Position numbers and translations under genes: made by a program | The notes under the pieces: model-generated | The model's database searches: none | Seen by the model: only the letters and a program-made list of their open reading frames with translations | What the model was told of the DNA's origin: nothing | Virus record (IMG/VR): IMGVR_UViG_3300013307_000002 | Coordinates: 18,362-82,361 of that record | Strand: one strand, 5' to 3' | Length of the DNA: 64,000 nucleotides | Origin: a virus | Shown: piece after piece, positions 1-14,022 of the stretch | Layout of the letters: each line of letters opens with the position of its first letter | How positions within the stretch are numbered: position 1 is the stretch's first letter

Positions 1-970
1 TAATACCAATATCGACACCAGCAACACGACGCCAGTGATCAGGGATTGGGAACGATTCACAACGAATCATTTCATCTGACACGTCATAGATTAGACCACT
101 ACCCATAACTGGTTCACCTCTTGAACGCATCTGAACTTGCCAGTCTGGAATAGCCGCTAACATATTTTTAATATCTTCCTCAGTGATATGCGGAGCATCC
201 CACCAAGTTGCATTTTGCCAATAGAGATCCCCATCTTTGTTGACCATGAACTTATCAACTAACTCAGTACGTCCGTTCTCTGGTGTAGCTGTTAACACTA
301 CCAAGCCTCTTGTTGTCAGAGTACGTGTAACACACTGAGAAAAGATGTTCATGCTATCGTAGGGATCTTCTTCATCTAGCCAAATGAAATCTACTGTAGC
401 ACCCATGAGTGCGTGTTCACCCTGTTGGGTAGAACGGAATTCTAATGTACTTGTTCCATCAAATTCGCCTCTCGCGTTGAAGTGTTTAACTTGTACAATT
501 AGAATCTTGTTACCATCTTTTTCTATTGTGTCAAAGTCGATGCAGTCACGCGGGATAGCTCCTGTACCAAGTGCTCCCAAATCTTTGGCTACCGGCGTAC
601 CGAACAATTCTTTTTGCAGAACCTTTCTTGTTGAGTCTCCAGTAATACCAACTGCCCAAGCGAGGATGGGCTTATTAAACCTATGACCAGTCCACCACGT
701 TGGATACCTTCCGGTTAAATGACATGCCATCTCATATGCTTCACTGTAGGATTTCCCGACACGGTTAGCTGCACAGAGAAACCTAAAGCGATAGTCTTTG
801 CTAGCACTATAGAATTGTTTTTGAAAATCGTAAGCATGGAAGTAATTCATCTTGTTATACTTCCGAAGGTTTTCCTTTTCCTGTAGCATTCGGAACAACT
901 CAGCCTTTTGTTCTTTATTCATTGTTCTCAGTGCGATTTCAATTTCTTGTGATAAATCAATATTAGACAT
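1..970 (-). CDS. terL: Terminase large subunit (TerL), C-terminus outside window
   Basis: ATP-driven DNA packaging motor and headful/end nuclease acting at the capsid portal. The translation shows a Walker A-like CAANRVGKS at about residues 66-74 and a Walker B VDFIWLDEED at about 191-200, followed by a coupling-type LTATPENG. The last visible part, with VAGVDIG, enters the nuclease domain, whose remainder lies beyond position 1. The start ATG (970-968) follows a GGAGGAAA ribosome site. It lies directly downstream of the probable small subunit, from which it is separated by a hairpin terminator. Family assignment to a T7/phiEco32-type terminase rests on motifs and position. Confidence 0.93.
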   Translation of the reverse strand, partial: MSNIDLSQEIEIALRTMNKEQKAELFRMLQEKENLRKYNKMNYFHAYDFQKQFYSASKDYRFRFLCAANRVGKSYSEAYEMACHLTGRYPTWWTGHRFNKPILAWAVGITGDSTRKVLQKELFGTPVAKDLGALGTGAIPRDCIDFDTIEKDGNKILIVQVKHFNARGEFDGTSTLEFRSTQQGEHALMGATVDFIWLDEEDPYDSMNIFSQCVTRTLTTRGLVVLTATPENGRTELVDKFMVNKDGDLYWQNATWWDAPHITEEDIKNMLAAIPDWQVQMRSRGEPVMGSGLIYDVSDEMIRCESFPIPDHWRRVAGVDIGI

Positions 971-1036: not shown

Positions 1037-1453
1037 TTAGTCGTCTTCTGAATCCTCTTCTTTAGACGGAGGCAAAACATCTCCACCCAAACTCGCAGAT
1101 AAGAAGTCACGGATTTTATTATCCAGTTGATCTTCAGTGAGAGCATCATGCTCGTCCATCTTAACTTCAATCGAAGCAGCTTTCGGATATACCAGATCGG
1201 CAACCTTAGCAGCAGCTTTGAATCTCAGGTCAGGTGGAATGGTTGGATCTTGATAAATATCAATCATGACTTCATCAGGGGACAAACCAGCTTGTGCAAC
1301 TCTATCTAACATAGCTTGAGTTAATTTGTTTCGTTTACCTTTAGCTCTTCCGAACTTGTTTCCTTTTTCGAACTTACCTGACTGTGGGTTCATACCTTTA
1401 ACTTCATATTCATCAGTAACCCCAGCCAACCTTTTGAGTTGTTCGTTATCCAT
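1037..1453 (-). CDS. terS: Probable terminase small subunit (TerS)
   Basis: Predicted DNA-recognition subunit of the packaging machine. The 138-aa protein has a basic N-terminal stretch (FEKGNKFGRAKGKRNKLTQ, about residues 28-46), a helical middle with two short helices ending in AAKVADLVYP, and a very acidic C-terminus (EEDSEDD). Size, charge layout and place immediately before terL support the call; no catalytic motif exists to confirm it. The ATG is preceded by AAGGAG at good spacing. Alternative: an unrelated DNA-binding phage protein. Confidence 0.65.
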   Translation of the reverse strand: MDNEQLKRLAGVTDEYEVKGMNPQSGKFEKGNKFGRAKGKRNKLTQAMLDRVAQAGLSPDEVMIDIYQDPTIPPDLRFKAAAKVADLVYPKAASIEVKMDEHDALTEDQLDNKIRDFLSASLGGDVLPPSKEEDSEDD

Positions 1454-1703: not shown

Positions 1704-2252
1704 TTAGCTCAGTACAATCTTACCTGTCTTTAATCCTTCCATGATTTCATCGTACGCTGGATGTTCATGAACAGGGATGGTGTTGTACTCATATGAATGG
1801 AATGGTTCTAAGCAATTGAGCTTACCATCTTTATCAACTTCTACTCGACAACCATTGATGATGTTGCCTGAATGCACATCTTGTTTAGCTAGGCCATTAA
1901 TGCGATGGTAGGCTTGAGGCCCATTCACCATTTCCATAAATCTGTTAGCAGAATCTTCTACTTCTTTGTTATCAACAATATGATAGAAAGTGTTGTGAAG
2001 GGGGTTCTTACCACCAGATAAGAAATTCTCATAATCCTCTAACTTGTTTGGATTATTCACTTCTCTCTCATATTCTTCTTCCAGAGAGATTGCATGACCT
2101 GCGATGTTAAGGGCATGTTCCTTATCATAAATATCATTAACAGCACCACCACGTAAGCTACTAACTAATTCAGTGAATTCAGTAGGAGTGATGTGACCTT
2201 CATTCAGTAGCTCATTCAGGATTGCTACTCTCTCATTAAAATTACTATTCAT
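1704..2252 (-). CDS. Hypothetical protein, 182 aa, upstream of terS
   Basis: Unrecognised soluble protein, acidic and without membrane segments or clear motifs. The start chosen is the ATG at 2252, which overlaps the stop of the upstream HNH gene (TAATG) and has a GGAG site about nine bases ahead; a start 15 bases further upstream lacks a ribosome site. The N-terminus (FNERVAILNELLNEGHITPT) looks helical, like a short DNA- or protein-binding segment. Membership in the packaging transcript suggests a packaging or late role, which is inference only. Confidence 0.7.
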   Translation of the reverse strand: MNSNFNERVAILNELLNEGHITPTEFTELVSSLRGGAVNDIYDKEHALNIAGHAISLEEEYEREVNNPNKLEDYENFLSGGKNPLHNTFYHIVDNKEVEDSANRFMEMVNGPQAYHRINGLAKQDVHSGNIINGCRVEVDKDGKLNCLEPFHSYEYNTIPVHEHPAYDEIMEGLKTGKIVLS

Positions 2253-2740
2253 TAAATATGTCTCCATGTTTTTCTGTGTACTACATTATGGATGGTAGTT
2301 CTACCAACACCATACCTAGTAGCTAAAGCCCGAACCCCGTAAGTACGAGACTCCGGTATAAACTCTTTCCGTATCTGGAGAACATCTTCTTCAGTAAGTA
2401 CGTGTTTTCCGTGACGTTCAGAATATAAATTATTATTTACTGCGTGTTCTACATTAATCTTTTGTGTACACCACTCTAGGTTGTCTATGTGGTTGTTAAG
2501 CTTATTACCATCTTTGTGATTAACAACTAAACCTTCGTAGCTTTCTTGTGGATGCCAAGTCATAGCAATCAATCTATGAATGGGGAGGTAGTGAACTTTT
2601 TTGTCAACTGTAACCTTAACTTCTAAATATCCTGCAAGATTGATTCTGCAATATCTTTGTTTCTTATTTGTTGGTTTTCTTATTTCACCAGTCTCGTTTA
2701 CCTCTAACCAAGACTCCCAACCATTTACGAGTTTGAACAT
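2252..2740 (-). CDS. HNH homing endonuclease
   Basis: Free-standing HNH nuclease of 162 aa that would nick or cut related phage DNA at a specific site to spread itself. An HNH core is visible (IHRLIAMTWHP, then VVNHKDGNKLNNHIDNLEWC, about residues 53-93, ending N..HA). A C-terminal helix-turn-helix-like part (YGVRALATRYGVGRTTIHNV) resembles NUMOD-type DNA-binding modules. It is the first gene of the leftward block, directly after the divergent intergenic region, and is stop-start coupled to the next gene. Confidence 0.88.
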   Translation of the reverse strand: MFKLVNGWESWLEVNETGEIRKPTNKKQRYCRINLAGYLEVKVTVDKKVHYLPIHRLIAMTWHPQESYEGLVVNHKDGNKLNNHIDNLEWCTQKINVEHAVNNNLYSERHGKHVLTEEDVLQIRKEFIPESRTYGVRALATRYGVGRTTIHNVVHRKTWRHI

Positions 2741-2758
2741 AATGCCTCCAATAATATC

Positions 2759-2768
2759 TATACATCTT
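2759..2768 (-). promoter_or_regulatory. Candidate phage-sigma promoter element for the leftward block
   Basis: Minus-strand AAGATGTATA, 19 bases before the HNH start codon, followed by further AT-rich sequence. It shares the (A)ATG(T/G)ATA core with sites at 39064, 50069 and 9617, all in gene gaps. Proposed target of the phage ECF-like sigma; not proven. Confidence 0.35.
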
Positions 2769-3461
2769 ATTCATTATTGAAAGGTGGAATAGGGTTCCGT
2801 AATAGGGACACTTTTATTCTCAAAAATCCGACGAGTGGGGTATAGAGCTTTTGGCGAAAAGGCAGAAAGGGGAGTCCTCATTTGGTTTTTCCTAAACAGA
2901 ACTATCCTTGTTTGTCAATCGGAACTATCCTAAATCGCTAGCCATTCACCGCTATGCATACCTATGCACTACCTACCCCTACCCATTAATAACAGGGGGT
3001 TTTATTCAGAGGATAAACTATTCAGTGTTATATCTTATAAACTATTGATTCATATAATATAAAAAATGTAGGAAATAACCCGTATTTATGTTGACAACGT
3101 GATGCCGATATGATAGGCCCGACTATAGAACTAAGCATAGACTATACTCTGAGTAACTAAGCATTCATTGCTATTGCATAACCATTCATTATCCGCTGAG
3201 AAAGATAAAGTCTAAAGCATTAATAGCTAAAGAATGATTACATTTCCCAGGGTTAATAAACGTAGATTATTCAGTAGGTTAGTTGTAGTAGAGTTAGTAA
3301 GTTGTTGATTCTTCTCTCTTTTCTTCAGAGTGTGTTTGAGTGTAACGAAAACGTTAAAGATGTTAGTAGAGAGTTATATGCCTGTTAAGTAATTGTAATT
3401 AGATTGTTAATAGGATGTTATTCATACTTAGAATAAATATAGTAACTTAATGAAATAATTC

Positions 3462-3490
3462 TTGACATTTACTATTAAATATGTTATAAT
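3462..3490 (+). promoter_or_regulatory. Consensus sigma70 promoter with extended -10
   Basis: TTGACA (3462-3467), 17-bp spacer, TATAAT (3485-3490), with TGT just before the -10 (extended -10). This is essentially the ideal host promoter and points rightward into the early region, so it is the likely immediate-early promoter. Confidence 0.88.
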
Positions 3491-3890
3491 ATACTATTAG
3501 AATGATAGTAATAAGTTATAATGTTTTATAGAATTATTATTAATTGAAATATTATTATTAGAAATTATAACTCTTAGAATTATTAACAAGGTTAACTCTA
3601 TTACATTCAGATCCGTAGTCTATAAGTACCAGATTATAGAGTGATTATTGAGCAGTTAGATTAAGTGGTTGATTTATAAGAAGTTTTATTTGTTGATTGT
3701 TGGAACTGTACAAGATACGCATGTACGCGTTCTATCTACTGAGCGATGATTGATTGGTACTAGATAGATAAACTGTTTATAAATCAGTAACTTAGATGTT
3801 TAGTGCGATGGGATGATAAGAATTTAGAGATTATTTTCTCTTTAGAATCAATAACTTAGAAGAAAGATTGAAAATAGTTAGACAAAATGG

Positions 3891-3918
3891 TTGCAGTGAA
3901 GGGCGATTCTGATATTAT
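3891..3918 (+). promoter_or_regulatory. Sigma70-type early promoter
   Basis: TTGCAG, 16-bp spacer, TATTAT. It is followed by a hairpin and a perfect boxA, a layout repeated twice downstream. Confidence 0.7.
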
Positions 3919-3945
3919 GTATCTCAAGCCAGCAGCAACGGCTCA

Positions 3946-3980
3946 GACAACTAGAAGTTTGGTTGTCGTGCTCTTTAACA
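3946..3980 (+). promoter_or_regulatory. Hairpin plus perfect boxA (antitermination leader 1)
   Basis: A GACAAC/GTTGTC stem (3946-3951 with 3962-3967, 10-nt loop) is followed by TGCTCTTTAACA (3969-3980), identical to the boxA core of E. coli rRNA operon leaders, which binds NusB/S10 and helps RNA polymerase pass terminators. It lies about 45 nt after the expected transcript start of the promoter at 3891. Confidence 0.75.
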
Positions 3981-4106
3981 ATCAGACTGTTATGTTATCC
4001 CTTTAGTAACGATGTTACAAGCTAACGAGAATTAACTAGATTGCCGTTGAGGTTGTTACTGGAAACAGTGACTTAGCAAAAAGGTTAATTGAGAGTGAAA
4101 AAGAGA

Positions 4107-4134
4107 TTGACAGATTAAAACAGTCTGATAGAAT
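4107..4134 (+). promoter_or_regulatory. Sigma70-type early promoter
   Basis: TTGACA, 16-bp spacer, TAGAAT, directed at the small gene at 4273. A boxA-like element follows at 4207. Confidence 0.7.
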
Positions 4135-4206
4135 GGGCACCAAGTTGAACGGAAAGCCGCGCTGAATAAGTTTAGTAAGCCCCGCAAGATGTTTAGCTAG
4201 TAGTAC

Positions 4207-4218
4207 CGCTCTTTAAAA
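4207..4218 (+). promoter_or_regulatory. boxA-like element (leader 2)
   Basis: CGCTCTTTAAAA; first nine bases match the boxA consensus, the end differs from copies 1 and 3. It sits in the 5' leader of the gene at 4273. Confidence 0.55.
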
Positions 4219-4272
4219 ATTTAACTTCAGTCTGGTCTGATAAACTATCTACTTAGCAGGGGAAGGTTTATC

Positions 4273-4461
4273 ATGGCAAGAAATACTCTTAAACGTGTGA
4301 TGTTAGGTTATATCCTAATTGATAACGAAACGGGCGCTGTATTCGACAGAGGCCCACACGACAGAGAGTGGTCACTAGTGATTAATAAGTCACTGGCAGA
4401 TACTCTCAGAGATTGGGGCGGCAAGGCTGCCATAGTCGGGCAAAACGTTGTGTTTAAGTGA
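4273..4461 (+). CDS. Small early protein, 62 aa
   Basis: First gene of the rightward block. Unrecognised; basic N-terminus then a compact mixed sequence with no membrane segment. The ATG follows an AGGGGAAGG ribosome site and a promoter/boxA leader of its own, and a 14-bp hairpin starts right after the stop, so it forms an isolated transcription unit. Such first-expressed small proteins often bind and inhibit host factors; that role is inference. Confidence 0.75.
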   Translation: MARNTLKRVMLGYILIDNETGAVFDRGPHDREWSLVINKSLADTLRDWGGKAAIVGQNVVFK

Positions 4462-4493
4462 TGATAGACTGGCGCTCAGGCGCTGGTTTATCA
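4462..4493 (+). other. 14-bp hairpin with TCAG loop, after first early gene
   Basis: Bases 4462-4475 pair with 4480-4493 along all 14 positions, three of them G-U, around a TCAG tetraloop. No U tract follows, so it is more likely an RNA-stabilising or processing structure than a simple terminator. Confidence 0.6.
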
Positions 4494-4518
4494 GACTAGA
4501 TTGAAGTTGAAAAAATTG

Positions 4519-4546
4519 TTGACCTGACCGGCGATTGCTGTATAAT
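4519..4546 (+). promoter_or_regulatory. Sigma70-type early promoter
   Basis: TTGACC, 16-bp spacer, TATAAT. It drives the long leader that runs to the genes at 5267-6610. Confidence 0.8.
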
Positions 4547-4556
4547 GGTTAACAAG

Positions 4557-4616
4557 TTGAGGCGATAAGCCTTAACAGATAACGGTGTAACAGCTTGTTG
4601 TCGACGCTCTTTAACA
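4557..4616 (+). promoter_or_regulatory. Hairpin plus boxA (antitermination leader 3)
   Basis: A 7-bp stem TTGAGGC/GCCTTAA (4557-4563 with 4569-4575, loop GATAA) is followed by CGCTCTTTAACA (4605-4616). The bases GTTGTCG just before boxA are also found before copy 1, showing that the unit is duplicated rather than random. Confidence 0.7.
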
Positions 4617-5266
4617 AACAGGATGATTACTTAACTAGCGAAAGCAATCGCTTAGAATGACGCTCAGGCGCTTCTATGATGGTTGTTAGTAGGTTGGTTG
4701 TGTGTAGCGGGTAAATAAGCACAATCGACAAGGTTAGTAGCGAAACAGAAAGCTGATTATCATATCGGGCTTTTGTAGCAGTCTGCCTATCCGGTGAGAC
4801 TAAGCGCAATAGCTGTAAACGGTAGATGAAAGGTTAATAAGAAGTGCGAACGCCCACTAAGTTAAGATGACAATACAGAATGTAACAATTCGCTTTTGTC
4901 TATCATCCGAGCGGCTAACGCCGCGCCCCGTTTAACAATATGGTTTTGATTCTATCCAAGTATGAGACTAGCGAGATAGTTTAGTGTTGAGGATTGAAAG
5001 CAGATAACTCCCTGTTGTAGTTTGATATAGTGATTCTGTGAGTAGTGGCTTAACGATAATCGCTGATAGTAAAAGTAGGGCATGAGTACGTGATAGGCCG
5101 GAAAGTGTGCGAACTGAAAACGGTGATTAGTGCGGCGTTAGAGATTATTTGGATTAAATAGAATCGCCTTTGTTAAACGGGAGGATAAAATGTAAAGCGT
5201 AAAGGTTTACAACCTAAATTAATGTGAGGTGGCTTGGTGCCTTAATCTGAAAAAGATTATGTGAGC
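4617..5266 (+). other. Long early leader without convincing genes (650 bp)
   Basis: No long reading frame. It contains a GCGGC/GCCGC hairpin (4911-4924) inside a GC-rich patch whose ACGCCGCGCCCC recurs at 7650, and a strong ribosome site (GGGAGG) leading to an ATG immediately followed by TAA (5190-5195). It may hold regulatory or small RNA, but nothing specific can be named. Confidence 0.5.
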
Positions 5267-5359
5267 ATGAGCCTCTTTACCTGTTGTCAGTGCGGTTACT
5301 ACTGTGACGGCGCTGATAATGGTAAACAGGTTTTTAAACAACACCTTAGCAGGGAGTGA
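5267..5359 (+). CDS. Possible mini zinc-binding protein, 30 aa
   Basis: A short frame carries CCQCGYYC, a cluster of four cysteines able to bind metal. Its stop lies within the ribosome-site stretch of the next gene, suggesting coupling. The ribosome site ahead of its ATG is weak, so translation is uncertain. The recurrent 12-mer ACTACTGTGACG lies inside it, read in a different frame from its other coding copies. Confidence 0.35.
   Translation: MSLFTCCQCGYYCDGADNGKQVFKQHLSRE
5298..5309 (+). repeat. 12-bp repeat ACTACTGTGACG, copy 1
   Basis: One of seven exact copies in the window, all on the transcribed sense strand. Here it is read as part of Tyr-Tyr-Cys-Asp in a mini gene. Confidence 0.75.
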
Positions 5360-5364
5360 AGTAA

Positions 5365-5661
5365 ATGGAAAAAATAACACTGGTTAGAATGTTTAGACAA
5401 TTACTTGTTAGTTCAATCGACAAGTTAGGCGCAGGCGGTATGAAACCGGAGGCTGTTTATCGGGAGTTTATCGCTCGCAAGGCTAACATCCTCGAAAATG
5501 TACACTCTACCACTAACCGCAAAGAGCATTTAGCGTTAATGCTTATTGCAAACAAAGTTTATGTGAACCCCACTAAAAAGGGCAGTAGCGAACTGTTAAA
5601 GAAAGAGTTTGAAACGTGTTTAAACAAACTCCCTTCAGCAGTTAACGGTTTTAAAAAGTAG
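5365..5661 (+). CDS. Hypothetical early protein, 98 aa
   Basis: Unrecognised basic, mostly helical protein with no signal peptide. The ATG has a GGGAG site overlapping the end of the tiny frame before it. It heads the same early unit as the abundant-looking 293-aa protein. A nucleic-acid-binding role is possible from its charge only. Confidence 0.75.
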   Translation: MEKITLVRMFRQLLVSSIDKLGAGGMKPEAVYREFIARKANILENVHSTTNRKEHLALMLIANKVYVNPTKKGSSELLKKEFETCLNKLPSAVNGFKK

Positions 5662-5728
5662 TAAACTGTAGTACAATCCGAGTGTAATAACTCAATCTCA
5701 TAAATAAATACTTTGAAAGGTAAATAAA

Positions 5729-6610
5729 ATGTCTAAAGTTGAAATCGTAAAAGGTCAAGATAACATCCGTAGCGTAATTGGCGCAATCGCTGGTAAAGCT
5801 AAAGCGTACAAAACCGTTATTTCTAGCGCAATCCTCTCTGCTTATCAGCACTACCGTTTACACGGTGATTACACCCTGCTGCAAGAAGCGTTAGACACTG
5901 TTTTCTCTATCAATTACCGTGATTACTCCGCCGTTGCTGATTTTGTTCGCTCTTACACTGAGCTGGAATGTGTTACTCTTAATCAGGGCCGCCGTCAGCG
6001 TGTTGAGATCGCTGGAACAATTGAATCTCAGATGGAACGCCCGGAAAATATGTCCATGAAAGATTGGAACGCTAAGCTGGAGTCTAAGCGTAGTGAAATG
6101 ATCATCCGTAATGGTCGCTTTGACGATTTTGCTACCGGCAAGCCGATCCCAATGAAGAATCCTAATTGGGTACAGGGTATGCCTAAAGATGAAAAGCAGG
6201 AAGGCGTAGTTTACGACGGCGACATCTTTGCATGGCATGATGATGTTAAATGGCTGCGCACTGCTGCCCCTACTGTTGGCGGTGAAAGCACTGAAAACCT
6301 GCGAGAGCTGCCGGTAGAGCAAGCGGTAAACGTCGCTGTTAAACTGGAAGATCGTGTCCTGAAATCCAGCAACAAGCCAGTGTTTGCTGTCCTGATTCAT
6401 ATGATGGAACGTTTTGAAGCTGAAACCGGCGTGTATGCTACTGATGAAGAGATTGAAACTTTCCAGCGCCGTGTAAATGCACTGCTGGAGCGCACCAAAG
6501 CGCGGTCAGAAAGCAAAGCAGAACGTGAAGCTGCTGAAAAGCAGGCTGCTGAAGAAAACAGCGGTGAGCAGGTAGTAACAACAGAGCAGGGCGAACCACT
6601 GCCTTACTAA
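5729..6610 (+). CDS. Hypothetical early protein, 293 aa
   Basis: Unrecognised soluble protein. Residues 1-90 are helical; the middle is mixed with a tryptophan-rich patch (residues about 140-175); the last 50 residues form a Glu/Lys/Ala-rich probable coiled coil and a short acidic tail. Codon use is strongly host-like, suggesting high expression. It starts after AAAGGT and ends at a strong hairpin terminator. Position early in the rightward transcript suggests host takeover or an abundant structural role; neither can be read from sequence. Confidence 0.85.
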   Translation: MSKVEIVKGQDNIRSVIGAIAGKAKAYKTVISSAILSAYQHYRLHGDYTLLQEALDTVFSINYRDYSAVADFVRSYTELECVTLNQGRRQRVEIAGTIESQMERPENMSMKDWNAKLESKRSEMIIRNGRFDDFATGKPIPMKNPNWVQGMPKDEKQEGVVYDGDIFAWHDDVKWLRTAAPTVGGESTENLRELPVEQAVNVAVKLEDRVLKSSNKPVFAVLIHMMERFEAETGVYATDEEIETFQRRVNALLERTKARSESKAEREAAEKQAAEENSGEQVVTTEQGEPLPY

Positions 6611-6630
6611 TACCTGATTGTATAAAAGTC

Positions 6631-6661
6631 AAAGGGCATAATCTAACAGGTTGTGCCCTTT
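6631..6661 (+). terminator. Hairpin terminator
   Basis: AAAGGGCA (6631-6638) pairs with TGCCCTTT (6654-6661), followed by a short AT-rich stretch. Confidence 0.65.
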
Positions 6662-6688
6662 ATTGTATGCAATTATAAGATTTATGTT

Positions 6689-6732
6689 TACCCCGTCTTA
6701 AATGTAACCCTGCTAAGTTATTAGGCGGGGTA
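6689..6732 (+). promoter_or_regulatory. Stem-loop in leader of next gene
   Basis: TACCCCG (6689-6695) pairs with CGGGGTA (6726-6732) across a 30-nt loop, about 30 bases before a start codon. Possible attenuator or stability element. Confidence 0.4.
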
Positions 6733-6764
6733 GACATACCCATTATTACTAGGAAAAATTATCA

Positions 6765-7163
6765 ATGTCTGAATTTGTACAGATGAAAGATGCTCAAACC
6801 GCTGAAGAGAAAGCAGCATCTATCGCAGCTATTGCAGCCCGTAGTAAAACACGCCACCTAACTAACTTTGGTTTAAGCCGTGGTGCTCTGCGAGTGTCTA
6901 AGCAGTCTGAAAATAGTGATGTCCGTAGCAGCGTAACATCTCGCTTTCGTAAACCTGCGGAACGTGGTACGTTAGAACATCGTGAGACGCGCAAAGTAAC
7001 TAAAGGCCGTCAGAAAGTTAAAGGTAAAACTATTGAGCCTGACGGCTGGTATACTCTTTCTCAGGGCGCTGATTGTGTGATGGGGCGTGATGAAAACAAA
7101 CGCACCAAAGCTACCACGTCACAAGGCGTTTTTGTGAACGGAAAGAATAAAGGGTTTAAATGA
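6765..7163 (+). CDS. Hypothetical basic protein, 132 aa
   Basis: Unrecognised, strongly basic protein; Arg/Lys-rich from residue 27 on, with an alanine-rich N-terminal helix. No cysteine cluster or membrane segment. Likely nucleic-acid binding by charge. It has a weak AGGAAAA ribosome site, is preceded by a stem-loop and followed by a classic terminator, so it is a single-gene unit. Confidence 0.8.
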   Translation: MSEFVQMKDAQTAEEKAASIAAIAARSKTRHLTNFGLSRGALRVSKQSENSDVRSSVTSRFRKPAERGTLEHRETRKVTKGRQKVKGKTIEPDGWYTLSQGADCVMGRDENKRTKATTSQGVFVNGKNKGFK

Positions 7164-7193
7164 TCAACTGCTGTTTATAAGGTAACTTTACCT

Positions 7194-7222
7194 AGCCACT
7201 CCTCCGGGGGTGGCTTTTTTTT
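7194..7222 (+). terminator. Rho-independent terminator
   Basis: Nine-pair stem starting AGCCAC (7194-7202 with 7207-7215) followed by eight T. Confidence 0.92.
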
Positions 7223-7264
7223 GCTTAAAGAAAAGTGTAACCTTTTGTATAGGAATGTCTAACA

Positions 7265-7621
7265 ATGAAACAGCAAACAATATCTAAAGAGCGTCGCAAT
7301 GCGATGCATCGTAATTACAAGGCATACATAGGCAGGCTGATTGCCTTGTTCCCTGAAGTGTTTGACCGTGAAAACCCTAAGCCGCTGGCTATCGGTACTG
7401 CTGAAATGCTTCTCAGTCTGCCAGCGTTAAAGATGGATGATGATCTAGTGTCTGACGTGCTGGCTTGTTGGTGTAGCCGCCGGGAGTATATCCGTGCTGC
7501 TTATCAACTGCGGGAACGTTGGAACGTGGTCGGTGTGCCTGTTGGCCCTATCATTGATTGGCAACAGAAACGTTTTGACACTCTTTATCACAAGATGGTC
7601 AAGCGTGGTTTGTATAACTAA
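7265..7621 (+). CDS. ProQ/FinO-domain RNA chaperone
   Basis: Predicted RNA-binding protein of the ProQ/FinO family, which binds structured RNAs and controls sRNA-mRNA pairing. The family signature is clear: LFPEVFD then NPKPLAIG (about residues 28-44), then CSRREYIRA and a terminal WNVVGVPVGP-like strand. At 118 aa it is a single FinO domain without the linker and tudor-like tail of host ProQ. It has its own unit after a strong terminator. It may act on the structured RNAs encoded nearby or on host sRNAs (inference). Confidence 0.85.
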   Translation: MKQQTISKERRNAMHRNYKAYIGRLIALFPEVFDRENPKPLAIGTAEMLLSLPALKMDDDLVSDVLACWCSRREYIRAAYQLRERWNVVGVPVGPIIDWQQKRFDTLYHKMVKRGLYN

Positions 7622-7640
7622 GCTATACGGGGCAGGTTTT

Positions 7641-7652
7641 ACTACTGTGACG
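7641..7652 (+). repeat. 12-bp repeat ACTACTGTGACG, copy 2
   Basis: Intergenic copy between the ProQ-like gene and the SleB-type hydrolase gene, just before the latter's ribosome site. Confidence 0.75.
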
Positions 7653-7681
7653 CCGCGCCCCCTCAGTAAAAGGAATTACTA

Positions 7682-8080
7682 TTGATCTCTACGGCTATAT
7701 TATATGTCGCTCTCACTACTTACCATGAGGCAAGAGGTGAGCCAAAATTGTGTCAGTTATTAGTGGCTGAGACAGTGAGCAACCGTATGAAAAGCCGTGA
7801 TTTAACAGCTAAGCAGGTTGTAAGACAAAAGAATCAATTCTCATGGGTATCTGTCTTAAAGGGCAGAAGTGTTAGACAGGAATATAAAAGAATACAAAGG
7901 ACAGCAGAACCTGCTGATAGGAAAGCACTAGATGATTCAATCAATCTGGCTAATTGGGTTCTCTCTCCTTTGTATGTTTCAGTGAGTGATGCTGAATATT
8001 TCCACGATACTAGCATACGTACCCCTAAACACTTTAAACATAGGATAACGTGTGGAGGTAAGCTAGTTTTTTCTAGGTAA
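7682..8080 (+). CDS. SleB-type cell-wall hydrolase (Hydrolase_2 family)
   Basis: Predicted peptidoglycan-cleaving enzyme (lytic transglycosylase-like). The family pattern is present: YHEARGEP (about residues 14-21, with the expected catalytic Glu), NR near 38, FSWVSV near 53, ANWVLS near 95, and YFHDTS...GGKLVF at the end. The TTG start has an AAAGGAA site at good spacing. There is no signal peptide, so export would need a holin, or it is an endolysin. It sits in the early region, far from the spanin genes at 51372. Confidence 0.82.
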   Translation: MISTAILYVALTTYHEARGEPKLCQLLVAETVSNRMKSRDLTAKQVVRQKNQFSWVSVLKGRSVRQEYKRIQRTAEPADRKALDDSINLANWVLSPLYVSVSDAEYFHDTSIRTPKHFKHRITCGGKLVFSR

Positions 8081-8086
8081 ATCAAT

Positions 8087-8260
8087 ATGGATAAATGCGT
8101 ATTCTGTAAGCAGCCGATTGGTTTGCTACAAGAAATAATCTTAATCAATTGGCGTAAGCGTAAAGGTGAGCGCCGTATTGTTATTGCTTATAGCTGCACT
8201 GGTTGTGGTGAAGATCGTATAACTGACTTCTGCCAGCCTGAAAGGCCAGTGTTCAAATAA
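8087..8260 (+). CDS. Zinc-ribbon mini protein, 57 aa
   Basis: Two cysteine pairs, CVFC near the N-terminus and CTGC at about residues 40-43, define a zinc-ribbon fold; the part between them is basic. ATG with AGGTAAA ahead. Function unknown; similar mini zinc ribbons recur in the window. Confidence 0.75.
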   Translation: MDKCVFCKQPIGLLQEIILINWRKRKGERRIVIAYSCTGCGEDRITDFCQPERPVFK

Positions 8261-8263
8261 ACA

Positions 8264-8275
8264 ACTACTGTGACG
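8264..8275 (+). repeat. 12-bp repeat ACTACTGTGACG, copy 3
   Basis: Intergenic copy ending 18 bases before the ATG of the secreted protein at 8294. Confidence 0.75.
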
Positions 8276-8293
8276 TTTTTGTGAGGAATTGCC

Positions 8294-8764
8294 ATGCGTA
8301 AATTATTGTTGTTGGCTGTGTCAGTCTCGTTAGTTTTCACCGCCCCGGCAATGGCTCGTGGCAATTACAATTCATCCTCTGAAAATTACCAGAAATATCA
8401 GCAGGATACTCGTACCCCTGAAGAGATTGAAGAGGACGAGGATTATGAAGATGGTGTTACAGATTGGGAAGATCACACTGTACCATCTCCTCAGCATGAC
8501 TCTCAGAACGCCTCTTTAGCTATGTGCGGTAAACACACTGTCTTTATAAATCAAGATGATAATGTGCTTACAGTGGATGGTTTAAGCTATCAGTTGCTGG
8601 GTTTTGATTATAAGGTAGTTAACTCAGAACCTGTTCTAATTGATCACTATGCTCTTGGCAATAAGATTGCTAACTTAGCAGTATTTCAAAACTCTAAGAA
8701 AATGATCTTCTTTCTTCAGGGTGAAAAACACTCTGTTGAATGTGTTCCATATCAGTGGAACTAA
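8294..8764 (+). CDS. Secreted (periplasmic) protein, 156 aa
   Basis: A typical Sec signal peptide with basic start, hydrophobic core and AMA cleavage site near residue 21. An acidic, low-complexity linker (about 40-62) precedes a compact C-terminal domain with two cysteines that could form a disulfide. No family recognised; the small two-cysteine periplasmic layout recalls lysozyme-inhibitor-like folds, but this is weak. An early secreted protein might alter the envelope or block superinfection (inference). Confidence 0.75.
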   Translation: MRKLLLLAVSVSLVFTAPAMARGNYNSSSENYQKYQQDTRTPEEIEEDEDYEDGVTDWEDHTVPSPQHDSQNASLAMCGKHTVFINQDDNVLTVDGLSYQLLGFDYKVVNSEPVLIDHYALGNKIANLAVFQNSKKMIFFLQGEKHSVECVPYQWN

Positions 8765-8790
8765 GAGTATATTTCTCATAATGGACTCAA

Positions 8791-8837
8791 AGCATGAGCT
8801 TAACGCTAGCGTTGGATCGCTTGCTTCTGCACATGCT
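8791..8837 (+). other. Structured spacer with nested palindrome
   Basis: AGCATG (8791-8796) pairs with CATGCT (8832-8837), enclosing the 12-bp palindrome AACGCTAGCGTT (8802-8813). No U tract. Possible RNA structure or operator. Confidence 0.4.
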
Positions 8838-8864
8838 TAGTATTCTTTTGTATAGGAGTTCATT

Positions 8865-9053
8865 ATGGCTAAGATTAACGTTAAAACAGCCAAAAAACCT
8901 CTTAATAATAAAGAGGATAAGGCAAAAGATCCAGATGTGAATGATGTTAAACGTAAGTTAGCAGCACTACTTCTGTTTCAACAACTCCACAAAGAGAAGC
9001 CCAAGAAAGGTAGCCTATCTAAAGTGGATTCAAACGACAAACCCTCTGAGTAA
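8865..9053 (+). CDS. Lysine-rich small protein, 62 aa
   Basis: Unrecognised, rich in Lys and Asp, likely partly disordered with one central helix (KRKLAALLLFQQLH). Good TAGGAG ribosome site. Its stop codon lies inside the following terminator. Confidence 0.75.
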   Translation: MAKINVKTAKKPLNNKEDKAKDPDVNDVKRKLAALLLFQQLHKEKPKKGSLSKVDSNDKPSE

Positions 9054-9070
9054 TCAGGGGGTTTTCTTTT
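9042..9070 (+). terminator. Rho-independent terminator
   Basis: CCCTCTGA (9042-9049), loop GTAA, TCAGGGGG (9054-9061), then a T-rich tail. Confidence 0.88.
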
Positions 9071-9084
9071 ATCAGGGTTAATAT

Positions 9085-9360
9085 ATGTACGAAGATTTCG
9101 GTAGTATATGGGTAACAGCGTTGCTGGTTTACCTTATCGTTTTCTTTATCGATTTTGTGTGGATGAATAAAGTAGACAAAGAGAATCAAGGTGTTATGAC
9201 TAAAGCAGATTACTTTATTAATCTGGTTGAAAGCATGATGTGGCCTATCCTCTTACCACTTGAGATCATCTTCTTTCTTATCATTACAGTGTTCTCACTA
9301 ACTCTTGAGTCTTTGTTCTGGATTCGTCGTAAGGTTAAAACGCTGTGTAAGCAATTCTAG
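9085..9360 (+). CDS. Two-TM membrane protein, 91 aa
   Basis: Two hydrophobic segments at about residues 9-26 and 52-80 separated by a charged loop, and a basic C-terminal tail. No family recognised. It is followed after nine bases by another two-TM protein, so they may work as a pair. Holin-like or superinfection-exclusion functions are possible from topology only. Confidence 0.75.
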   Translation: MYEDFGSIWVTALLVYLIVFFIDFVWMNKVDKENQGVMTKADYFINLVESMMWPILLPLEIIFFLIITVFSLTLESLFWIRRKVKTLCKQF

Positions 9361-9369
9361 GAGGCGTCA

Positions 9370-9588
9370 ATGGATGCCGGGTACATTCTTACTATCTTCT
9401 GGTTTTTCTTTGCCTGCATCACATTTGGCTGCCTTGTAGGTGGTGATACACCTAAAGAGTTCATCAAGCCTACTAAGGGTTTTGTCTTAAAGGCTTGGTT
9501 TATCTCTGTATTCTGGCCTATAGCTTTCCTCTTAGTTACTATCGAATATCTTGCTAAGAAAACTTCTTGGTTAGGTGGTTGGAGATAA
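9370..9588 (+). CDS. Two-TM membrane protein, 72 aa
   Basis: Hydrophobic segments at about residues 5-24 and 40-60. It has an AGGAGG ribosome site and lies directly behind another membrane gene. Unrecognised. Last protein gene before the tRNA array. Confidence 0.78.
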   Translation: MDAGYILTIFWFFFACITFGCLVGGDTPKEFIKPTKGFVLKAWFISVFWPIAFLLVTIEYLAKKTSWLGGWR

Positions 9589-9605
9589 AATAGTTGGTAG
9601 TGTTT

Positions 9606-9634
9606 ATATACTATAGCGAATGGATATAGTATAT
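9606..9634 (+). promoter_or_regulatory. 10-bp inverted repeat with candidate phage promoter
   Basis: ATATACTATA (9606-9615) and TATAGTATAT (9625-9634) are a perfect inverted repeat around GCGAATGGA. The loop and right arm contain CGAATGGATA (9617-9626), close to the proposed phage-sigma element. It lies just upstream of the first tRNA. Confidence 0.45.
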
Positions 9635-9651
9635 AACCAGTAACTAATTAT

Positions 9652-9727
9652 GATTCTGTAGTTCAGTTGGTAGAACGGTGGACTGTTAATCCATATGTCG
9701 CAGGTTCAAATCCTGCCAGAATCGCCA
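9652..9727 (+). tRNA. tRNA-Asn (GTT), CCA encoded
   Basis: Acceptor GATTCTG/CAGAATC, D arm, anticodon stem GTGGA/TCCAT with loop CTGTTAA (anticodon GTT), T arm GCAGG-TTCAAAT-CCTGC, discriminator G and encoded CCA. All arms pair well. Confidence 0.93.
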
Positions 9728-9733
9728 AACAAT

Positions 9734-9802
9734 GGGAACCTGAGCACTCTAGGGGACTAGAATATGAGCAATGGTTAATGACACTCGTGATGGTTCCCAC
9801 CA
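9734..9802 (+). ncRNA. tRNA-like element ending in CCA (69 nt)
   Basis: A 7-bp acceptor-like stem GGGAACC/GGTTCCC (9734-9740 with 9792-9798) is followed by A and CCA, as in a tRNA. Inside are two 5-bp hairpins (9748-9761, 9764-9788) but no normal T loop or anticodon loop. It sits between tRNA-Asn and tRNA-Tyr with tRNA-like spacing. It could be a decayed tRNA or a functional tRNA mimic processed with its neighbours. Confidence 0.5.
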
Positions 9803-9808
9803 TTCAAT

Positions 9809-9895
9809 GTTGGATTACTCAAGCGGCAACGAGAGCAGACTGTAAATCTGTGGCCCATATGGGCTTCGAAGGTTCGAGTCCTTCATCCAACACCA
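9809..9895 (+). tRNA. tRNA-Tyr (GTA), CCA encoded
   Basis: Acceptor GTTGGAT/ATCCAAC, anticodon stem GCAGA/TCTGT with loop CTGTAAA (anticodon GTA), long variable arm, T arm GAAGG-TTCGAGT-CCTTC, discriminator A and CCA. Confidence 0.93.
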
Positions 9896-9930
9896 AACAA
9901 TGCACCTATAGTTAATTTTTGAGGTTTACT

Positions 9931-10140
9931 ATGGCAGACTGTAATCGTTGTGGGGATTCTGGGGGAAAGTACTCCCCAAATGAAAACTCTAATAATGGGG
10001 TTTTCTGTTACAACTGTATTGATATTGTGTTAGCTGGGGGCGGAGGAGGTGACTGTAACCCTCGTTACTCTGATAACCCCGGCACAAGGGAAGCTTATAG
10101 AAGACTTATGAGCGCCCCAAACTCAGAGTACAAGTATTAA
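9931..10140 (+). CDS. Zinc-ribbon mini protein, 69 aa, inside tRNA array
   Basis: CNRCGDSGG near the N-terminus and CYNC at about residues 26-29 form a zinc-ribbon pattern like those of DnaJ-type or translation-linked zinc proteins; a glycine run follows. The ATG at 9931 has a GAGGT site; an upstream TTG was rejected. It lies between tRNA-Tyr and tRNA-Arg. Function unknown. Confidence 0.72.
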   Translation: MADCNRCGDSGGKYSPNENSNNGVFCYNCIDIVLAGGGGGDCNPRYSDNPGTREAYRRLMSAPNSEYKY

Positions 10141-10153
10141 TCAAATATATAAT

Positions 10154-10228
10154 GCACCTATAGTTAAATGGATATAACAGGAGCCTTCTAAGCTCTAGTT
10201 CTAGGTTCGATTCCTAGTGGGTGTGCCA
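10154..10228 (+). tRNA. tRNA-Arg (TCT), CCA encoded
   Basis: Acceptor GCACCTA/TGGGTGT with G-U pairs, anticodon stem GGAGC/GCTCT with loop CTTCTAA (anticodon TCT), T arm CTAGG-TTCGATT-CCTAG, CCA. It reads AGA, rare in enterobacteria and common in AT-rich phage genes. Confidence 0.92.
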
Positions 10229-10234
10229 TATTTA

Positions 10235-10323
10235 GCCCGGATGATGAAACTGGTAAACATAGGAGACTTAAAATTTCCCGTCTCGTAAGAGGCTTGCGGG
10301 TTCGACCCCCGCTCCGGGCACCA
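10235..10323 (+). tRNA. tRNA-Leu (TAA), CCA encoded
   Basis: Acceptor GCCCGGA/TCCGGGC, anticodon stem GGAGA/TTTCC with loop CTTAAAA (anticodon TAA), long variable arm, T arm GCGGG-TTCGACC-CCCGC, discriminator A, CCA. Confidence 0.92.
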
Positions 10324-10356
10324 AACAAAGTAACTTTCAGTTCAGTGAGATAAAGT

Positions 10357-10554
10357 ATGAACAGAGAGCAGTCCTTGCACTGGAGGGGTTGGTTAGAAAA
10401 ACAGCCCATGTTTAATGCGAGAGTTTACTGTGTTAGATGTATGGCACCTTATAAAATAGGTGAATGTCAAGAGACACTAGATTCTCCGGGTTGCTATTGG
10501 AAGGAGAGTAAATGCCCTTCATGTGGGTGTAAACTTTATTACAGCCATCTATAG
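10357..10554 (+). CDS. Zinc-ribbon mini protein, 65 aa, inside tRNA array
   Basis: CVRC at about residues 25-28 and CPSCGC near residue 53 give a zinc-ribbon fold, with further cysteines between. N-terminal part is rich in Trp and Arg. It lies between tRNA-Leu and tRNA-Gln; ribosome site weak (GTGAGA). Function unknown. Confidence 0.68.
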   Translation: MNREQSLHWRGWLEKQPMFNARVYCVRCMAPYKIGECQETLDSPGCYWKESKCPSCGCKLYYSHL

Positions 10555-10584
10555 TAATACATCTAGCAAGAATAACCAAACAAT

Positions 10585-10659
10585 AGGGCTATCGTATAAT
10601 GGTTATTACATCGGCCTTTGACTCCGATAATCCACGTTCGATTCGTGGTAGCTCTGCCA
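10585..10659 (+). tRNA. tRNA-Gln (TTG), CCA encoded
   Basis: Acceptor AGGGCTA/TAGCTCT, D arm GTAT/TTAC, anticodon loop CTTTGAC (anticodon TTG), T arm CCACG-TTCGATT-CGTGG, discriminator G, CCA. One mismatch closes the anticodon loop. Confidence 0.88.
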
Positions 10660-10689
10660 ATTTAAATGTGTAAACTAAAGGTGGCTAAT

Positions 10690-11109
10690 ATGAAAAAGCT
10701 TTCACTGGTATTGTGTGCTTTAGCATTAGCAGGTTGTGCTCATACTTCCACCGAAGTTAGTGAGCCGATTGCTTGCAGTGCAGATTGTGATGCACGGTTT
10801 GAGAACATCAGAGCTGTTGCTACTAAGTTCTTGGGCTATACAATCACTCACGAAACTTCTAATAGTTTCACGGCTCAATTAGTAAATCTTGATAAATCTG
10901 TTGTGGTAACAAGTGCAATGAATGTATTCAAGATGCCAGAACAAATCTTCGTTGACGTAGAAACATCAGGCGTATCTGATATTACTACAGCGGCTAACAT
11001 CTCTAACCTTACTAGCCATGAAGATTTCAGAACTATCAAAGTTCATAAAACAGAGAGTGTTGTAATACCAAACACTTATACAGAAAACCTGTTTAGGATT
11101 CCTCACTAA
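10690..11109 (+). CDS. Lipoprotein, 139 aa
   Basis: Start chosen at the ATG after AGGTGG, which gives a clean lipoprotein signal: KK, hydrophobic core, lipobox LAGC at about residues 13-16. The mature part has two more cysteines (SADCDARF region) and beta-rich sequence. It would be anchored in the envelope. No family recognised. Its stop overlaps the next start (TAATG). Confidence 0.8.
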   Translation: MKKLSLVLCALALAGCAHTSTEVSEPIACSADCDARFENIRAVATKFLGYTITHETSNSFTAQLVNLDKSVVVTSAMNVFKMPEQIFVDVETSGVSDITTAANISNLTSHEDFRTIKVHKTESVVIPNTYTENLFRIPH

Positions 11110-11261
11110 TGTCAATGGCTAGTAAATATAACGCTATTTGCGAGAAGTGTGAGTCAGATATGGAAGAAGGCCCAGTTCTTTATTCAGAAGTTATGGACTG
11201 TGTTGTTCAGTCTTATATCTGTCCTCTTTGTAATCATGAGCAAGAGGAGGTAGTAGAGTGA
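11109..11261 (+). CDS. Zinc-ribbon mini protein, 50 aa
   Basis: CEKC at about residues 11-14 and CPLC near 39-42 form a zinc ribbon. Start overlaps the previous stop (TAATG) and the stop overlaps the next GTG (GTGA), so three genes are translationally coupled. Confidence 0.68.
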   Translation: MSMASKYNAICEKCESDMEEGPVLYSEVMDCVVQSYICPLCNHEQEEVVE

Positions 11262-11386
11262 GTATCATCTGGTATCTGCTCATTCGTTATAACAAGTTTA
11301 GCGATGATGCTTTGTTCGGGTTCAGTATCATAGGTGTGGTAGAGATGATTATTGAATTTGCTCTACTGGCAAACTTTATTCTTTAG
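11258..11386 (+). CDS. Single-TM membrane protein, 42 aa
   Basis: GTG start with a perfect AGGAGG site. Hydrophobic from about residue 19 to the end. Function unknown; last gene of its coupled trio, followed by a terminator. Confidence 0.6.
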   Translation: MSIIWYLLIRYNKFSDDALFGFSIIGVVEMIIEFALLANFIL

Positions 11387-11389
11387 TAT

Positions 11390-11415
11390 AAAGACCCGGA
11401 AGTATAGGGTCTTTT
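11390..11415 (+). terminator. Rho-independent terminator
   Basis: AAAGACCC (11390-11397) pairs with GGGTCTTT (11407-11414), then T. Confidence 0.8.
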
Positions 11416-11428
11416 CAATTGACAACAT

Positions 11429-11494
11429 GAAAGATCATTACCCACTTCCTTCTATTAGTGTTCGGTTATGACATTCCGCTGGTAGTGGTCTTTC
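11429..11494 (+). other. Long stem-loop RNA candidate
   Basis: GAAAGATCATTACC (11429-11442) pairs with GGTAGTGGTCTTTC (11481-11494): 14 pairs, two G-U, with a 38-nt loop. No gene here. Compensating G-U pairs suggest an RNA rather than a DNA site. Confidence 0.5.
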
Positions 11495-11556
11495 AGGTGT
11501 TCATTGAATATCGCTTGGAATCGATAATCCTGTTTAGCCAGCATCAATGGCAATAG

Positions 11557-11645
11557 TTACAGGTCGTCTAGTGGACTAGGACAACAGCCAAGTAATTCTT
11601 AGGAATGAAACGCGGGAAACGTAGGTTCAAATCCTGCTCTGTAAC
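11557..11645 (+). ncRNA. Degenerate tRNA-like element
   Basis: A D arm (GTC-GAC with TAGTGGACTAG), a good T arm (GTAGG-TTCAAAT-CCTGC) and an acceptor-like TTACAGG/TCTGTAA stem can be drawn, but no normal anticodon stem-loop fits and CCA is absent. Either a decayed tRNA or one with an unusual anticodon arm. Confidence 0.45.
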
Positions 11646-11690
11646 ATCTCAAATACTGAAAATGATACGTCTCTTCAGAGGAAATATAAA

Positions 11691-12050
11691 ATGGGCAACA
11701 AAAAATCTAACGCAGGTAAAGGTTCACTGGCAGCATACAAATCAAACAATAGCTTTGGTAAAAATAAAGTTCGTAAGCTGCAAACTCACCTGAAAAAGCA
11801 TCCTGAAGATGCTGTTGCTGCTGCAACCCTGTCGGCTGTAAGCCGTTCTATTGCTACCTCCCCTCGTTGGGGTCATAAGCGTGTAGGTAATCTGAATGCA
11901 TCTCAGCGCCTGCAAGATCAAACTGTAAGCAAAGTGAAGTCTGGCCTGCGTCAGCTCTCTTTCCTGTCTCGCCACGACAATGTTGAAATGGTTGACGGTA
12001 ACTACACCTCTGATCAAATCAAAGAGCGTGCTGCACGTAAAGCCGCGTAA
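11691..12050 (+). CDS. Hypothetical basic protein, 119 aa
   Basis: Unrecognised, very basic throughout (KNKVRKLQTHLKK, RRWGHK-like patches), no cysteine pairs. GAGGAAA ribosome site and host-like codon use suggest strong expression; a strong terminator follows. Probable nucleic-acid-binding protein by charge. Confidence 0.8.
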   Translation: MGNKKSNAGKGSLAAYKSNNSFGKNKVRKLQTHLKKHPEDAVAAATLSAVSRSIATSPRWGHKRVGNLNASQRLQDQTVSKVKSGLRQLSFLSRHDNVEMVDGNYTSDQIKERAARKAA

Positions 12051-12059
12051 TTCTGCCGG

Positions 12060-12088
12060 GGAGCCTTTTGGCTCCTCTTCTTTTTTTT
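12060..12088 (+). terminator. Rho-independent terminator
   Basis: GGAGCC (12060-12065), TTTT loop, GGCTCC (12070-12075), then a long T tract. Confidence 0.92.
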
Positions 12089-12107
12089 ATATGTGAGAGA
12101 TGCTGTA

Positions 12108-12242
12108 ATGATTGAGAATGCTGACGACAACGATATCCTGAATATTGCAATCGTTGCTTGTGTGGTTTGTATTGCTCTGGTTCTGTGTGTAGCCATCCCT
12201 GCTGCATACTTTTTATTTACTACTGTGACGGGTGGTGCGTAA
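12108..12242 (+). CDS. Single-TM membrane protein, 44 aa
   Basis: Acidic N-terminus, then one long hydrophobic segment (about residues 11-37) and a short tail TTVTGGA, whose codons are the recurring 12-mer. Stop overlaps the next start (TAATG). Weak ribosome site. Confidence 0.6.
   Translation: MIENADDNDILNIAIVACVVCIALVLCVAIPAAYFLFTTVTGGA
12219..12230 (+). repeat. 12-bp repeat ACTACTGTGACG, copy 4
   Basis: Located at the end of a membrane-protein gene (read Thr-Thr-Val-Thr), 12 bases before the next start codon. Confidence 0.75.
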
Positions 12243-12544
12243 TGTCAAAACCAATTCAACTTTATGCGGTTCATGAAAAGCAGGATGGCGTGCAGTGCAG
12301 TCATATCAAAACTGCGTACAATATCAATGCCCTCTTCCGTGCGCTGAATCTTCAGCCTGATATGAATGACGTAAACTCTCAGCGGTGTGTTGAAGCCATT
12401 AAAAGTAATGGCAAAATGTTTGTTTATCTCTCTCCTGAAATTAAGAAGTTTCATTTTTCCCGTGAAGCTCTTATGGAAGAGTTGATGTATTATCGTCAAC
12501 AAAAACAGCTATTGTCTGCTGTTGAGTCATTAGATAATACCTAA
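12242..12544 (+). CDS. Hypothetical protein, 100 aa
   Basis: Start placed at the ATG overlapping the previous stop; a longer frame beginning upstream reads through the other gene and was not used. Unrecognised soluble protein, helical C-terminus (EALMEELMYYRQQKQLLSAV). Its last codons lie in the left arm of the inverted-repeat element that follows. Confidence 0.75.
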   Translation: MSKPIQLYAVHEKQDGVQCSHIKTAYNINALFRALNLQPDMNDVNSQRCVEAIKSNGKMFVYLSPEIKKFHFSREALMEELMYYRQQKQLLSAVESLDNT

Positions 12545-12680
12545 CAAAATATTGACCATTCATATATTAAACATTTAATTGTGAATATAGAAAGTTAAAC
12601 CCTAATTATTAGGGGGGTTCGGGAAACCTAGTTTTACTAACAAAACTTAAACTATCACGAATGGTCAATCTTTTGTTAGG
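12540..12680 (+). ncRNA. Structured element closed by a 22-bp inverted repeat
   Basis: Bases 12540-12561 pair with 12659-12680 at 21 of 22 positions. Inside are further hairpins: CCCTA/TAGGG, GGTT/AACC and AGTTTT/AAAACT. The result is a compact multi-branch RNA of about 141 nt, or a MITE-like insertion; no target duplication is visible. The left arm includes the stop codon of the preceding gene. Confidence 0.6.
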
Positions 12681-13094: not shown

Positions 13095-13196
13095 ATGGAT
13101 CTCGTTTATTTATATTCTGTACTTCTACTCTCCATAGGAGCGCTAATCTTTTGCCTTAGAGAGTTATTCATCCACCTTCTGAGGATCTTTGAATGA
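13095..13196 (+). CDS. Tiny membrane protein, 33 aa
   Basis: A GGAG site precedes the ATG. Hydrophobic for most of its length (LVYLYSVLLLSIGALIF). Overlaps the next lipoprotein start by ATGA, an arrangement suggesting coupled synthesis. Confidence 0.55.
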   Translation: MDLVYLYSVLLLSIGALIFCLRELFIHLLRIFE

Positions 13197-13985: not shown

Positions 13986-13989
13986 AACT

Positions 13990-14022
13990 GCCCTGACCAG
14001 AAATGGTTGGGGCTTTTTTTTT
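13990..14022 (+). terminator. Rho-independent terminator
   Basis: Ten-pair stem GCCCTGACCA/TGGTTGGGGC (two G-U) around GAAA, followed by nine T. Confidence 0.93.

Follow-up and report, generated by a model that had tools for sequence, protein, structure and literature searches.

Ribosomal RNA-type boxA elements in the early leader of a phiEco32-like phage and its relatives, and their possible role in antitermination by host Nus factors

The RNA element boxA is a binding site for NusB-S10, and RNA polymerase is modified by the Nus complex. In the leader and spacer of the E. coli rrn operons, boxA acts with a NusB/NusE/NusA/NusG/SuhB complex. The boxA of the lambda nut sites has a form other than the rrn type, and the nut hairpin follows boxA. 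Further settings are described in the papers cited here. The gamma-proteobacterial boxA consensus, GYTCTTTAANA, was derived from E. coli rRNA, suhB and mutational work, and the outcome of the boxA located before suhB is repression (PMC5725501). In Legionella, the RNA level of a long untranslated CRISPR array increased about 10-fold with a boxA located before it (PMC7862264, where Stringer et al. are cited for boxA before CRISPR arrays). The put RNA of phage HK022 causes antitermination by itself, without a phage protein (PMC9378689). Like phiEco32, phage SU10 has three σ70 promoters in the corresponding leader spacer (PMC4281155). Phage 7-11 must very likely antiterminate its early transcription, by a strategy that was yet to be defined in 2022 (PMC8948821).

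The locus presented here is the early leader of a phage that is placed near phiEco32 and Grimontviridae by protein searches. The stretch of DNA analyzed, called the window, has 64,000 nucleotides and consists of bases 18362-82361 of a virus record of 82,361 bases. The leader extends from a divergent gene (2252-2740, minus strand), which encodes an HNH endonuclease, to position 5365, where the first long early ORF begins. It is 2.6 kb long, nearly without translation, and carries three boxA elements on the plus strand. No match was obtained when DNA-level relatives of the leader were searched in the phage records, in near and distant modes. Genes on the plus strand run on to about 54 kb. The features are the following, in window coordinates:

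1037-1453, minus strand: phrog_8771 gene, a divergent landmark beside the leader across the group
3462-3490, plus strand: strongest early σ70-type promoter, TTGACA-17-TATAAT (12/12), located some 480 nt before boxA copy 1
3891-3918, plus strand: weak promoter-like sequence of unit 1, TTGCAG-16-TATTAT, its -10 preceded by TG
3946-3967, plus strand: hairpin GACAAC-tagaagtttg-GTTGTC directly before boxA copy 1
3969-3980, plus strand: boxA copy 1
4107-4134, plus strand: promoter of unit 2, TTGACA-16-TAGAAT (11/12), with TG before the -10; similar site in the relative G001, aligned in A2
4207-4218, plus strand: boxA copy 2
4273-4461, plus strand: ORF of 62 residues between units 2 and 3, the frame of which looks kept in the relatives G001 and IMG31419
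4519-4546, plus strand: promoter of unit 3, TTGACC-16-TATAAT (11/12)
4561-4605, plus strand: folded stretch before boxA copy 3
4605-4616, plus strand: boxA copy 3
4620-5364, plus strand: untranslated leader past the last boxA, predicted conserved structured RNA (window, G001, IMG31419)
4926-5182, plus strand: predicted RNA domain within it
5365-5661, plus strand: first long early-operon ORF, 98 residues, without PHROG match
9652-10659, plus strand: five tRNA genes of the early operon
52071-52718, plus strand: phage sigma factor, phrog_1740 (Pfam match below the curated cut-off)

Copy 1 of boxA, TGCTCTTTAACA, is identical to the leader boxA of E. coli rrnB (GCGGCACTGCTCTTTAACAATTTATC), and copy 3, CGCTCTTTAACA, has one mismatch; sequence comparison confirms the earlier note on both. 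Copy 2, CGCTCTTTAAAA, had been called partial. It has two mismatches, but it shares its core with the boxA of the rrnB 16S-23S spacer, and since the latter reads TTTGCTCTTTAAAAATCTGG, copy 2 belongs to the spacer type and is not a broken copy. The consensus GYTCTTTAANA is matched by 3/3 leader copies, which, together with the rrnB leader and spacer matches, upholds their assignment to the rrn type. These matches, like the position and strand of the sites, are direct observations. Within the leader (2741-5364), GYTCTTTAA occurs three times in the sense and never in the antisense orientation, with 0.047 expected per shuffle and a maximum of one in 300 shuffles. On both strands of the window, GCTCTTTAA occurs five times, for 0.92 expected. 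Two other candidates were discarded: a degenerate boxA-like copy at 4926 is an arm of a long helix and was not counted as boxA, and a site with one mismatch at 11635 was taken as tRNA-like sequence, as an apparent tRNA T arm (...GGTTCAAATCC) directly precedes it. ARAGORN lists no tRNA at the latter site.

A consensus scan of the leader yields three outstanding promoters on the plus strand, at 3462, 4107 and 4519, the first of which lies outside the interval of the earlier note. That note gave a σ70 promoter to every unit. The promoters of copies 2 and 3 are indeed strong, but that of copy 1 is weak: the site at 3891 was read from the sequence and is listed by neither of two promoter scans. The succession promoter-hairpin-boxA as a repeated unit also holds in part. 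The hairpins proposed before copies 1 and 3 were found, with z of −2.4 and −3.2, respectively, but the hairpin is absent upstream of copy 2 (folding z 0.1). The heptamer GTTGTCG is present before copies 1 and 3, as had been noticed, and belongs in copy 1 to the 3' arm of the hairpin.

The phage leader resembles the E. coli rrn leader and spacer by the boxA core sequence, the σ70 promoter upstream, the structured untranslated RNA downstream and, for copies 1 and 3 only, the hairpin before boxA. It differs by being viral, by having one to five boxA copies behind separate promoters and some units without hairpin, and by heading a protein-coding early operon. With lambda N/nut it shares the early operon, boxA with a hairpin and, presumably, the host Nus factors, but the boxA is of the rrn type, the hairpin precedes it, and no N family was found. 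Antitermination would be N-independent as with HK022 put, although put acts alone as a folded RNA. The boxA of CRISPR arrays and suhB are also outside rRNA operons, and CRISPR arrays are long untranslated RNA, but these are cellular genes with a single boxA. The boxA of the phage leader is a known element in a new setting.

The early strand of 30 leader stretches, taken from 28 phages, contains 54 matches to GYTCTTTAA and the opposite strand none; dinucleotide shuffles give a total expectation of 0.83. Four kuraviruses (TH42, NC-B, Bas88 and ECBP2) were added to reach 32 phages, and the full consensus occurs in their 34 leader stretches 72 times in the sense and never in the antisense orientation. 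Leader boxA elements, one to five per phage, are present in 26 of the 32 phages including that of the window. Conservation of the leader position in related phages, to which the earlier note had pointed as a check, was therefore observed directly. There are three copies each in the window and its closest relatives G001 and IMG31419, four or five in kuraviruses and kin, two or three in the Privateer group, two in Lahexavirus and PJNS034, three in BUCT695 and IMG33688, and one in Crifsvirus. The leaders of SE131, 7-11, pSal-SNUABM-01, Vp_R1, PKM.Hi.22.6 and APT65 (6/32) have none; the whole record was searched for five of them, and the leader stretch only for pSal-SNUABM-01. As many of the 32 phages are closely related, the counts are not independent, and more weight attaches to the presence of the sites in several genera. 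The leader boxA sites are real, conserved and beyond chance. Upstream of the early promoters, there is also a block, 46 bp long at most, with 78–96% identity, found at positions 252-297 of the phiEco32 leader (L026, minus strand) and in A24, ECO319P1, Privateer, 3H10_20, IMG31419, PKM.Hi.22.6, SE131 and 7-11, some of which lack boxA.

Hairpin and promoter statistics were obtained from 18 of the 26 leaders with boxA, after prior exclusion of near copies (ECO319P1, Privateer, 3H10_20, J3S, LAh_8, LAh_9, 4_4572 and ECBP2). At the 54 sites of these leaders, which are not independent, the 40 nt before boxA have a mean z of −0.98 for a background of −0.42 (Mann-Whitney p 0.002). The 40 nt after boxA are also somewhat structured (mean z −1.00). 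A promoter-like site is found within 200 nt upstream of 44 of the 54 sites, as compared to 37% of random positions, and with a stricter cut at 32/54 sites compared to 22%; the weight matrix is rough and its scores are relative only. Even with the looser cut, 10/54 sites have no such promoter. With a promoter-like site before 44/54 copies, most early transcripts would carry their own boxA, as required for a signal acting in cis.

The earlier note supposed antitermination without a recognised phage N protein, and family searches agree: the record contains no match to N36 (PF11438), which is weak evidence since N proteins diverge, and no member of the NusB family. Antiterm (Q, PF03589) was absent from this record and six related ones (0/7). 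In phage 7-11, the leader of which is devoid of boxA, a protein is annotated as a Q-like antiterminator (L010 6691-6906). The terminators reported at 7194, 12060 (here 12058) and 13990 are present, and 22 terminator-like sites were counted in 3000-15000, for 8.0 expected. The proposal that boxA lets the polymerase pass strong intrinsic terminators is unsupported as stated, since those at 7194, 12058 and 13990 are not expected to yield to boxA by itself.

Given their exact consensus and conservation, the leader sites are likely to bind Nus factors. Host σ70 RNA polymerase would initiate at the tandem early promoters, and boxA emerging in the nascent RNA would be bound by host NusB and S10 (NusE). 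With NusA, NusG and probably SuhB, these proteins would remain on the polymerase, which would then be resistant to termination by Rho, both in poorly translated stretches and in the leader, long and untranslated as it is. Early transcription could thereby reach far downstream genes and finally that of the phage sigma factor, which, being 48 kb downstream of the leader on the same strand, needs long read-through. A separate boxA behind most promoters would equip nearly every early transcript. Judged from the sequences, Rho-resistant early transcription with the help of host Nus factors is the best single reading of the main effect and a rather probable one; what we infer is that Nus factors bind, that antitermination occurs and that Rho is the target. 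Besides the leader statistics and the position of the sigma gene, the units before tRNA arrays of viral contigs, the effect of boxA on the Legionella CRISPR RNA and the need for antitermination deduced for phage 7-11 speak for it. Several observations count against it: the weak promoter of unit 1, copy 2 without a hairpin, the six of 32 phages without boxA and the 10/54 sites without promoter-like site within 200 nt. C-poor, G-rich RNA is unlike a typical Rho loading site. The leader RNA is of this kind (16% C, 25% G), and because it is C-poor, Rho loading in the leader itself is disfavored. It also counts against this reading that, according to PMC5725501, rRNA is intrinsically Rho-resistant and Nus factors mainly aid its folding. 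The element was rejected as the answer for phage 7-11 itself: its layout is the same as in the window phage, but as its leader has no boxA, 7-11 must use other means.

The untranslated leader past the last boxA is predicted to form a conserved structured RNA. Alignment windows downstream of boxA, compared to column shuffles, reach z of −9.9 with seven kuraviruses and −8.7 with the window group. RNAalifold predicts 244 pairs from the seven kuraviruses, of which 62 are maintained through a double change, and 179 pairs from the three sequences only of the window group, 55 of them with compensatory changes. Such counts lean towards the predicted structure, whereas the column-shuffled control does not. 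The domain at 4926-5182 would be closed by CCCCGTTTAACAA (4926-4938) and TTGTTAAACGGGA (5170-5182), the outermost pair being unformed in the window. It spans about 290 alignment columns in both groups, the 5' arm of the closing helix passing through TTTAACAA or the adjoining ACAATAAGG, and the closing helix of the kuraviruses is comparable to that of the window. The kuravirus counterpart of the structured leader is found in phiEco32 at L026 4788-5642, minus strand. No family was matched in an Rfam search with the window and kuravirus leaders. If the prediction is correct, this is a large conserved structured leader RNA, undescribed, in a well-studied phage group. The last boxA may also pair with TAGAGAGCGG, located immediately upstream of the first early gene, but this pairing was set aside, as it is invariant and gives 0.02–0.06 per sequence against shuffles. 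It is the best pairing in six of seven kuraviruses (NJ01 is the exception), and none was seen outside kuraviruses.

Viral contigs were scanned with the pattern TTGACA-15..18-TATAAT-10..40-GYTCTTTAANA. At least 120 stretches matched, compared to 26 with a reversed boxA as control. Among them, 80 listed loci were analyzed, from diverse contigs of 4 kb to 367 kb. The 16S motifs searched were found in 0/80 of these loci. A hairpin is present between the -10 and boxA in 34/80 (p<0.05), and the loops of hairpins at p<0.1 are dominated by GAAA (13), GCAA (5) and GAGA (3). The listed loci are mostly outside long ORFs (67/80 compared to 4/26 controls), and 52/80 have sense tRNA genes at most 3 kb downstream, compared to 0/26 controls; since the controls are mostly inside genes, part of this contrast reflects intergenic position. 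Once near copies are removed, tRNA genes follow in 38/62 groups and in 0/14 control groups among the matches listed; in 16 of those 38 the first tRNA begins 7–18 nt after boxA, and 24/62 groups have no tRNA.

Other explanations were weighed against Rho-resistant transcription. The boxA-Nus complex may serve mainly the co-transcriptional folding or processing of the large leader RNA, as proposed for rRNA. The predicted structure of the leader, with its z values and compensatory pairs, is consistent with this, as is the main role in folding ascribed to Nus factors at rRNA in PMC5725501. In the Privateer group, however, the last boxA lies only about 70–90 nt from the end of the leader with no long RNA after it, so that the common factor is the early operon and not a long leader RNA; boxA also occurs before tRNA arrays. 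Folding as the main role is considered unlikely. It is also conceivable that leader transcripts, being short and abundant, work in trans and draw NusB and S10 from host rRNA synthesis like a sponge, as the one to five boxA copies per leader behind early promoters would allow. An upstream promoter of their own, which most copies have, is needed by a cis signal but not by a sponge. Compared to host rRNA, two or three copies in each transcript would seem a small number, and the units before tRNA arrays are mostly single-copy. A sponge is quite improbable.

A divergent N/nut system, with the hairpins as boxB-like sites for an undetected N-like peptide, is given a similarly small probability. Loops of the GNRA type recur before boxA in the viral contigs, among the matches listed, and also in several kuravirus units. 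N proteins, being small and divergent, may escape family searches. Against such a system, the record has no N36 match, and the ORF of 62 residues, as read from its sequence, is not rich in arginine and had no match in a search of phage records. Moreover, the hairpin precedes boxA, in the reverse of the lambda nut order, and loop and stem vary between units of one leader, copy 2 having none. Lastly, the boxA matches could be due to chance or be an untranscribed motif of promoter regions, since in 21 whole records with boxA leaders, 54/113 matches to GYTCTTTAA (both strands) lie in the leader and 59/113 outside. With 54 leader matches for 0.83 expected, complete strand bias, and sites downstream of the -10 that are kept across distant genera, this explanation is hardly credible.

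That the same signal heads early genes or tRNA clusters in many other phages suggests that phages may commonly borrow the host boxA machinery. The chances appear about even that the rrn-type boxA is a general phage device, in which promoter-(GNRA hairpin)-boxA units head untranslated RNA and confer processive Rho-resistant transcription or RNA folding by host Nus factors without an N protein. On the same even balance, such units would head tRNA arrays as well as long early leaders with RNA structure, the latter in phiEco32, Grimontviridae and their kin and, as traces, in T5-like phages. Term searches returned boxA zero times in papers on 7-11, SU10, Privateer and kuraviruses, including the SU10 paper (PMC4281155). 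A full-text literature search gave no description of boxA in such leaders or before phage tRNA arrays; novelty is not proven, as the main phiEco32 papers, Savalia 2008 and Pavlova 2012, were outside its scope. If boxA works here, the E. coli kuraviruses such as phiEco32 would be simple systems for N-independent antitermination by host factors only. Phage early operons and tRNA arrays would then join the small set of boxA uses known outside rRNA, and there would be a reason for phages to depend on NusB or SuhB.

In the pre-early region of T5, one site with the boxA consensus lies after a GGCGG-CCGCC hairpin (L214 4978-4988, minus strand), and it recurs in the right terminal repeat. Four consensus sites are found in the pre-early region of the T5-like Proteus phage Stubb (L131 4801-5776, minus strand).
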